Of a stretch of 37,300 nt of DNA, positions 11,619 to 37,068 are shown one piece after another (the stretch's first letter is position 1; each line of letters starts with the position of its first letter). Source of the DNA: Rhodospirillales bacterium (GTDB taxonomy: Bacteria > Pseudomonadota > Alphaproteobacteria > Rhodospirillales > Defluviicoccaceae); contig JALOTH010000029.1 of assembly GCA_025458035.1 (NCBI GenBank), positions 1 to 37,300 of the forward strand, given 5' to 3'. The notes below the pieces were generated by a model. It had not been told where the DNA came from and did no database searches. It saw nothing but the letters and a program-made list of their open reading frames with translations. The position numbers and the translations under genes are program-made.

Positions 11619-11905
11619 GTCGTCACCGGCTGAACGGGGGTCCGACGCCAAGGACAATCCGGTCCCCGGCTGCAAAATCCGGGCTAACGCCAAGGGTGTA
11701 AGCCGCTGCCGGCGGCGGCGTTGCCCGTCTGCCGATGTCGTCAGTTTGGCGTCGTCATGTCGTCAGCGGTGTCGTCACCCCGGTCGTCACGATGTCGTCA
11801 GAAGTCGTCAAAAGTCGTCATTGCCACACCGCTACCACATTGAAATCAAACGATGCACGGTCCGCGCCCGGTGCCGCTGTCGTCATCTGTCGTCATTTGT
11901 CGTCA
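11619..11905. repeat. Array of 12 GTCGTCA heptamers
   Basis: GTCGTCA starts at 11619, 11737, 11751, 11759, 11771, 11783, 11794, 11804, 11814, 11879, 11889, 11899; many spacings are 10-12 nt. Confidence 0.8.
11632..11720 (-). pseudogene. Decayed fragment homologous to the signal-peptide/N-terminal region of the 12884-13687 protein
   Basis: Minus-strand reading ...AAAYTLGVSPDFAAGDRIVLGVGPPFSR* versus ...AATYTLGVNPAFATGDRIVLGTGPVQVG in the intact gene; DNA also clearly similar (ccaaggacaatccggtccccggctgcaaaatccgggctaacgcc versus ccaggacgatccggtcccctgttgcgaaagccgggttaacgcc). Confidence 0.72.
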
Positions 11906-12221
11906 TCTTTCATCATCGATGGGTTTTCCCCGCCGCCGCGATCGGCACGGGCAACCCCGTGCCGCGCAGTGTCCCTTGCCCGCCACCCCTTTCGCAACCC
12001 GCCAACTTCGGGCGCTTGACGGGAAATTCCCGCAACGGCCACCTTAGGTTTGAATCGCGGGCCTCCGGACCGGACAGTCACCGTCGTTGAGCCAACCGTG
12101 CCGGGGCGGGTACACTGCAACGCCAACCATGCTGAAAGCGCTTCATCCCGTTTCGGCGCTCCGAGGAGTCCCTGAGCGCGCAGCTTCGGAGCGTCACAGG
12201 CGGTGCGGAAGGGGACTTGCC

Positions 12222-35401: not shown

Positions 35402-36289
35402 ATGTTCCACGATGACCCGTGCGCCGCCGCCTGGGATCGACCGGTCTTTATCATCACCACCGGCCGGTCCGGCAGCACGCTGTTGCTGCGCTACCTGAAC
35501 TGCGCCGAGGGCCTCGTCGTCTGGGGTGAACACGCCGGCGTCCTGCGCGAGCTGGCGGAGGCGTACCGCCGGCTGACCGGCCGGGAAACGACGGAATTCG
35601 TTGAGGCGGCGCGCCCGTGGGTCGACGATCTGAAGGCGAAGCGGGCGGTTCTGTGTCCCCTCGATCAGATGACGATCGAATGGGTCAATGGCTTCGATCC
35701 GGCGGCGATCCGCGGCGCCTTTCGCCGCATGCTGCTTGGCCTGTTCACGGTCGGGCTGCTGGAAACGACACGGTGGGGGTTCAAGGAAATCCACTATGGC
35801 TGCCGGGAGATGAACCTGCTGCGCCAGCTGTTCGCGGAACCGCGGTTCATCATGCTGGTGCGCCGGCCGGCGGCGATCCTGAAATCGAAGCTGAGCGCGT
35901 TCGCCAGGGGTGACCGGGCGACGATGGCGCCGCACGTCAGGGAGACCCGCGCCTTTTTCGAGAGCGCCGTGGCCGAGGCGCGGAGCGGTGCGCCCGATGT
36001 GCTCTTCGTCCATTACGAGGACCTCGTCAGCGGGCCGGGGCGTGAGATCGAGCGGCTCGCCGCGTTCATCGGCGCCCCCTTCGCCGCCGATGCCGTGCGG
36101 GCGATCGGCGGCGAGCGTGCCAATCGGGACTCGCCGGCATCATCACCGCGCACCGCCGCGGACGACATCGGCAGCGACATCGCCGATCTCGGCTTGACCG
36201 CCTGTGCCGAAGACATCGCGGCCATCGCCGCGCTCGACAAGGAGCTCGGCCGGCAGGCGCCGGCGCGAGCCGCTTCGCTGGCGGCCTAG
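35402..36289 (+). CDS. Sulfotransferase family protein
   Basis: PVFIITTGRSGSTLLLRYLN (PAPS-binding P-loop), RFIMLVRRPAAILKSK, VLFVHYEDLVSGPGREIERLAAFIG. Confidence 0.85.
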   Translation: MFHDDPCAAAWDRPVFIITTGRSGSTLLLRYLNCAEGLVVWGEHAGVLRELAEAYRRLTGRETTEFVEAARPWVDDLKAKRAVLCPLDQMTIEWVNGFDPAAIRGAFRRMLLGLFTVGLLETTRWGFKEIHYGCREMNLLRQLFAEPRFIMLVRRPAAILKSKLSAFARGDRATMAPHVRETRAFFESAVAEARSGAPDVLFVHYEDLVSGPGREIERLAAFIGAPFAADAVRAIGGERANRDSPASSPRTAADDIGSDIADLGLTACAEDIAAIAALDKELGRQAPARAASLAA

Positions 36290-36394
36290 TGCAGCGGCGC
36301 ATTCAAAAAATGCGCGGTCGCTGCACGCAACCTATTGTTTTTAGTGCACATCTGACCCATTCGACGGACCCATCCGAATGGGTCTGTGCACTAG
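36286..36394. mobile_element. ~100-bp MITE/REP-like double-hairpin element bounded by CTAG
   Basis: CCTAGTGCA (36285-36293) and TGCACTAGG (36387-36395) inverted ends; hairpin 1 36289-36326, hairpin 2 36343-36392, each with one 3-nt bulge; no ORF. Confidence 0.6.
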
Positions 36395-37068
36395 GACAAG
36401 GCTTCGACCAGGCCCCCCAGGAGCCGCGCCGTTTCGAAGTCGATGCGGCCGTTGACGCGCGCCGGCCGGAAATGCCGCTGAAAGGCGCGCAGCGTCGCAA
36501 TGGGATCGATCACCTCGTAGCCGACGGCGGCGAGGCGAGCCGCCACCGTATCCGTGTTCATGTCACAGATATCGGATGGCGCCGGCCAGATGCCGATGCC
36601 GTTGGCAGCGAGCCGTCGCCAGTCGAACAGCTCGCCCGGATCCGCCTTGCGTCGCGGGGCGATATCCGCATGACCGACGACATTGCGCGCGGGGATCGGA
36701 TGGCGGGTGAGGATGTCCGTCGCCAGCGTGATGAGCGACGCCATCTGCGCCTCGGGGAACGGCCGATAGCCGAACTCATGACCCGGGTTGACCAGCTCGA
36801 TGCCGACCGATCGCCCGTTGATATCGGTGCAGCCGCGCCAGTAGGCAGCGCCGGCATGCCACGCCCGGCGGGCTTCGTCGACCAGTTGCCAGACGGTGCC
36901 GTCCTCATCGATCAGGTAATGGGCGCTGACCTTCGCCGCCGCATCCGTCAGCCGCCGCAGCGCCGCCGCCGCCGTCTCCATGCCCGTGTAATGGATGACC
37001 AGCATGTCGATCGGCACGCCGGCGGCGCGCTCGTCGCTGTTCGGCGAGGGGCAGCGACGGACGGTCAC
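36391..37068 (-). CDS. N-acetylmuramoyl-L-alanine amidase (AmpD-like)
   Basis: IDMLVIHYTGM, VSAHYLIDEDGTVWQLVDEARRAWHAG, SVGIELVNPGHE, NVVGHADIAPRRKADPG; GTG start overlapping upstream stop; C-terminal peptidoglycan-binding-like segment. Confidence 0.92.
   Translation of the reverse strand: MTVRRCPSPNSDERAAGVPIDMLVIHYTGMETAAAALRRLTDAAAKVSAHYLIDEDGTVWQLVDEARRAWHAGAAYWRGCTDINGRSVGIELVNPGHEFGYRPFPEAQMASLITLATDILTRHPIPARNVVGHADIAPRRKADPGELFDWRRLAANGIGIWPAPSDICDMNTDTVAARLAAVGYEVIDPIATLRAFQRHFRPARVNGRIDFETARLLGGLVEALS

Follow-up and report, generated by a model that had tools for sequence, protein, structure and literature searches.

In E. coli, the RIB/RIP elements are BIME-1 units that carry an IHF site; they are ~100 bp long and place inverted hairpins at the 3' ends of transcription units. 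The GTAG-tagged HH dimers of the REPIN/BIME type combine inverted, tagged and bulged hairpins with a conserved spacer, are extragenic, multi-copy and found in tandem arrays, and the GTAG termini of REPs often supply the TAG stop codon of flanking ORFs (Di Nocera et al. 2013, PMC3733652). MITEPsy1 is a non-autonomous element of 100 nt that inserts at CTAG or YTAA targets with faithful duplication of the 4 nt and has 18-nt terminal inverted repeats (TIRs) matching those of ISPsy2 (PMC3189936). For IS630 and ISY100, of the Tc1/mariner group, the passage of PMC2170065 that cites Tenzen and Ohtsubo 1991 gives TA within CTAG as the preferred target. How REP-like doublets spread is still poorly understood, partly because empty sites have seldom been documented.

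Here, we describe a double-hairpin element in the genome of a Rhodospirillales bacterium (the host genome), located near the end of the 37,300-nucleotide stretch of DNA that was analysed (the window). A preliminary description of the locus had recognised two bulged hairpins between CTAG tags that hold the stop codons of two convergent genes, and the sequence, the ORFs and the predicted fold bear this out (Table 1). Specifically, the two tags are separated by 101 bp, the left tag is preceded by GGCGGC, and the ends of the element form an imperfect inverted repeat of 18 bp (TAGTGCAGCGGCGCATTC / TAGTGCACAGACCCATTC). The minimum-energy fold (-53.1 kcal/mol, compared with -28.65 on average for shuffled sequences; z = -6.8; 0/200 shuffles as good) contains both hairpins and both 3-nt bulges; the doublet fold is not a chance structure, and the host genome has 11 copies of this 109-bp sequence. 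An Rfam search with the element returned no family, and a search of a plasmid collection returned no match. As for the flanking genes, amidase orthologues terminate at nearly the same point (within about 1–5 residues); the sulfotransferase gene was found in none of the 10 further genomes of the bacterial family and, therefore, an empty site at the window locus was not obtainable. Elsewhere in the window, a repeat of ~50 bp at 11878–11916, also seen at L006:701-760, has several copies in the host genome and many in a further genome (G004), and is possibly a coding repeat.

Table 1. Features of the double-hairpin locus (positions are those of the window)
Feature	Position	Strand	Remarks
Sulfotransferase-family gene (PF13469)	35402..36289	+	Stop TAG; Pfam Sulfotransfer_3 E=7.8e-16
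Complete mobile doublet	36286..36394	.	109 bp including both CTAG tags; 11 host-genome copies, same ends except decayed copies
Left CTAG tag	36286..36289	+	Includes the TAG that ends the sulfotransferase gene
Hairpin 1	36289..36326	+	Loop CAAAA; 3-nt bulge GGT in 3' arm
Linker GCAACCTATTGTTTT	36327..36341	+	Contains AACCNATTG, a motif common to the Defluviicoccus families
IHF-like site AAACAATAGGTTG (predicted)	36328..36340	-	Putative; 8/9 of WATCAANNNNTTR
Hairpin 2	36342..36393	+	3-nt bulge TCT in 5' arm; 11-nt loop
Right CTAG tag	36391..36394	-	Includes, on the minus strand, the TAG that ends the amidase gene
AmpD-like N-acetylmuramoyl-L-alanine amidase gene (PF01510)	36391..37068	-	Stop TAG; Pfam Amidase_2 E=9.2e-40

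The search for further copies that the preliminary description had proposed returned 11 in the host genome, with 85–99% identity and on 10 contigs, adjoining at least 11 unrelated gene neighbourhoods. Aligned in one orientation, these copies run from tag to tag, the exceptions being single-base changes in a tag (CTAC on contig C40, TTAG on C132 and CTCG on C195) and a copy on C8 that is cut by the contig end, and they form two sequence subgroups. We note that contig C8 (L007:1) starts exactly within this copy; the repeat thus breaks the assembly and the copy number may be underestimated. One copy lies at an orthologous locus in DF3PA (UXAT02000012.1; G002) and in Defluviicoccus SCELSE-4 (G003), and none of the other genomes in a set of 60 relatives had strong copies. 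This kinship suggests that the host is an alphaproteobacterium of the Defluviicoccus type. Among the sequences read, the doublet was always complete, and we noticed no copies consisting of a single hairpin (REP). The stems show few compensatory changes and, because the copies are too similar, stem covariation is uninformative. Orthologues of the genes at the other host-genome copies displayed natural variation in their stops and no empty sites at the DNA level.

A covariance model built from 13 copies was used to find further double hairpins with CTAG ends. It identified, in both G002 and G003, a 121-bp family with different stems and CTAG ends, as well as look-alikes, again with different stems, in further members of the order (G130, G136 and G081/G092); a third multi-copy family of about 121–124 bp is also present in G002/G003. 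All families have the same order of CTAG, bulged hairpin, linker, bulged hairpin and CTAG; in every Defluviicoccus family that was read, young copies carry CTAG as the tag, and AACCNATTG recurs in the linkers of these families. In 1.2 Mb of G003, the 121-bp family has 25 near-complete copies, and it also forms tandem arrays with a period of 117 bp in which neighbouring copies share one tag; at one and the same locus, the array has four copies in G002 versus two in G003. At another locus, the 121-bp element lies in opposite orientations in G003 (L116:1285-1405) and G002 (L117:1285-1405), reflecting either an inversion in place or two independent insertions at one CTAG. A second type of double hairpin in G130 (contig C113, L134:1501-1621), with the linker AACTATTGTTTTTAG and the end CTCTAG, suggests that there are still more families.

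The 121-bp sister family is mobile. Using joined-flank queries between G002 and G003, we found eight loci at which this family, rather than the window copy, is inserted in one of the two genomes and absent from the orthologous site in the other. The 11 host-genome copies and these eight polymorphic insertions with clean empty alleles support the initial suggestion of a small non-autonomous mobile element. Occupied alleles read CTAG at both junctions, except for one array edge with CCAG, while the empty alleles consist of a single tetramer: CTAG (two), CTAA (three), TTAG (one), TTAA (one) and GTAA (one). The target is thus a TA-centred tetramer with the inner TA present in 8/8 empty alleles, and at six of the eight empty sites it is a tetramer other than CTAG. 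At the outer positions, the empty tetramers depart from C/G in 8/16 cases, compared with 16/160 differences among the ten bases adjoining the site (P = 2.4e-4) and 29/270 at third codon positions (P = 2.3e-4). Because the outer bases of empty sites often differ from C and G, the tags seem to be the element's own, i.e. from the allele comparison the C and G of CTAG appear to arrive with the element and not to be copies of target bases. A 4-bp target duplication of CTAG had been among the first suggestions; given the six non-CTAG empty sites and the excess of outer-base differences, it is not supported in that form.

The same alleles bear on whether the doublet is a classical MITE, with TIRs recognised in trans by a DDE transposase and cut-and-paste insertion, either of the IS630 type with duplication of TA inside CTAG or of the IS5/IS427 type with duplication of CTAG. 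The imperfect inverted repeat at the ends, the invariant central TA, the presence of IS630-type transposases (DDE_3) in the host genome, and the documented precedents of CTAG/YTAA duplication in MITEPsy1 and of the TA-in-CTAG preference of IS630 all fit such an element, and MITEPsy1 is also of similar size and non-autonomous. However, the outer C and G found at every young occupied site are frequently missing from the empty alleles, so that the empty sites seem to fit neither a faithful 2-bp nor a faithful 4-bp duplication; unlike in MITEPsy1, the outer bases do not seem to derive from the target, and TA duplication alone, as in IS630/ISY100, does not explain the junctions. A parent IS is also missing from the sequences searched. 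CTAGTGCA occurs 20 times in the host genome, 18 times as an element end and twice as an isolated hit; because 18/20 occurrences are ends of the CTAG doublet, the assembly contains no IS with CTAGTGCA ends. The autonomous IS with matching ends that had initially been envisaged was likewise not found in the host genome (a draft of 239 contigs) or in 1.2 Mb of G003, and the host-genome IS630 copies examined have no TIRs like the element ends, the doublet itself being without a transposase gene. Because the host genome is a draft of 239 contigs, a partner IS may be missing from the assembly. A 1.7-kb segment of G003 between two inverted sister copies was considered as an autonomous partner and was discarded because it contains ordinary genes. 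Taking the IS630-type and IS5/IS427-type variants together, we consider a MITE fairly unlikely, and we do not regard the element as a proven MITE.

We also considered that CTAG may be strictly required at the target and that non-CTAG empty alleles lost it later through a genome-wide avoidance of this tetramer. CTAG is ~27-fold depleted in the host genome (23 sites outside the elements in 205 kb versus 619 expected from composition); CTAG sites may, therefore, turn over fast, a CTAG present in one lineage may frequently have no counterpart in its relative, and turnover in the empty lineage could account for some of the outer-base differences. The two CTAG sites among the eight empty alleles also agree with a strict requirement. 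By contrast, tags inside elements decay mainly at the inner TA, with 24 inner and five outer changes in 50 tags of 25 G003 copies, whereas the empty alleles differ at outer bases only (0 inner, 8 outer; P = 3.3e-5), and on this ground we hold a strict requirement for CTAG to be doubtful. Finally, a conserved pair of terminators acting in both directions between convergent genes, whose TAG stops would be coincidental, had also been entertained. It would account for strong hairpins between convergent genes and for the T-run on the + strand of the linker, but we reject it as extremely improbable in view of the occurrence of the same 109 bp beside at least 11 unrelated neighbourhoods, the presence or absence of sister copies between close relatives, the lack of a T-run directly after either stem and the lack of an Rfam match.

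The placement at stop codons is exact and real. In seven of the eight empty alleles, the tetramer already serves as the stop codon (TAA or TAG) of a gene that scores as coding; the gene, therefore, ended there before the insertion and the stop was not created by the element. In the host genome, 9/11 copies have a gene stop in a tag, and an unbiased census of G003, in which arrays were counted once, gave 12/22 insertion events. Against a background of stops at 34/169 (20%) non-coding target-like tetramers and at 10/23 CTAG sites, the combined 21/33 is in excess (P = 6.6e-8 versus target-like tetramers; P = 0.016 versus CTAG sites alone). Non-stop tags in the G003 census are mostly decayed (CGAG, CTCG, CCAG). 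An early estimate of 29/33 stop sites was dropped in favour of this census, as it came from the covariance-model search, which is biased towards copies whose tags are intact. A good part of the stop placement follows from the survival of TA-rich tetramers in a genome of 67% G+C together with selection that keeps stop-bearing tags. That the insertion machinery itself selects stop codons and converts both flanks of the site to CTAG, by a chemistry that is neither a DDE duplication nor the known RAYT/IS200 single-strand insertion, is a tentative idea that we think rather unlikely to be correct.

With a probability of about 0.65, our preferred reading is that the element is a CTAG-tagged, REPIN/BIME-like, non-autonomous mobile palindromic doublet with an IHF-like linker. 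The comparison with an inverted REP/BIME-like pair, made in the preliminary description, is supported by the architecture of two inverted, tagged and bulged hairpins, the short linker and the tandem arrays; like the GTAG-tagged HH dimers, the doublet is extragenic and multi-copy with a conserved spacer. It differs from them in having CTAG at both outer ends instead of the GTAG/GTGG of canonical REPs, in the documented empty alleles at stops and in the lack of a cognate RAYT. Specifically, no RAYT flanked by CTAG doublets was detected in the host genome or in 1.2 Mb of G003. The RAYT genes that were found, one in the host genome (NF047646; L026:1483-1962 on contig C2) and one on contig C11 of G003 (about 146140–146613, with a CRISPR array beside it), lie amid GTAG-type REPs (GTAGGGCGGGTT..., GTAGGTCGGATTAGCG...) that are unrelated in sequence to the CTAG doublets, and these genes lend no support to the original suggestion that a RAYT/IS200-IS605 enzyme may have moved the element. 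The S. maltophilia TnpAREP still acts on a CTAG variant, with reduced activity (PMC8266576), and a RAYT-type enzyme for CTAG doublets is therefore possible. Because the tag is not GTAG and the RAYTs lie among other REPs, we do not claim membership of the REPIN/BIME group for the doublet. The likeness to RIB/RIP extends to the size of about 100 bp, the inverted hairpins around an IHF-like site and the position at the 3' ends of transcription units, whereas sequence, tag and host differ and the IHF site of the doublet is a consensus match only. The IHF consensus is matched at 8/9 positions in 6/7 families, although matches within the elements are barely better than those in shuffled sequences (25–62/500 for these six families). 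For the 121-bp family and G092, moreover, the 8/9 match ranked first is located elsewhere than in the linker.

In the mechanism that we propose, a doublet of two inverted hairpins around an IHF-like linker, with a tetranucleotide tag at each foot and a 3-nt bulge in the arm facing the tag, would be copied to new places by a trans-acting enzyme encoded elsewhere. Insertion occurs at a TA-centred tetramer, mostly a gene's stop codon (TAA or TAG), as the empty alleles of the sister family show, and leaves CTAG at both junctions, as seen at the occupied sites; each gene ending at the site thus keeps a TAG, and convergent genes are pushed apart, unbroken. Copies persist where the tag is a stop, while non-stop tags decay by loss of TA, the pattern in the G003 census. 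By analogy with E. coli BIMEs, the hairpins in place would shield the 3' ends of mRNAs or dampen read-through, and IHF may bind to the linker.

The doublet is, therefore, of an ordinary kind, a short mobile palindromic repeat, with an unusual tag and an unusually well-documented target. The eight clean present/absent pairs show this target, a TA-centred tetramer that in most cases is a stop codon in use, and they point to a tag that moves together with the element, giving direct and testable constraints on the chemistry of insertion. Targeting of stop codons explains how such repeats come to lie at the ends of genes without harm to the genes.
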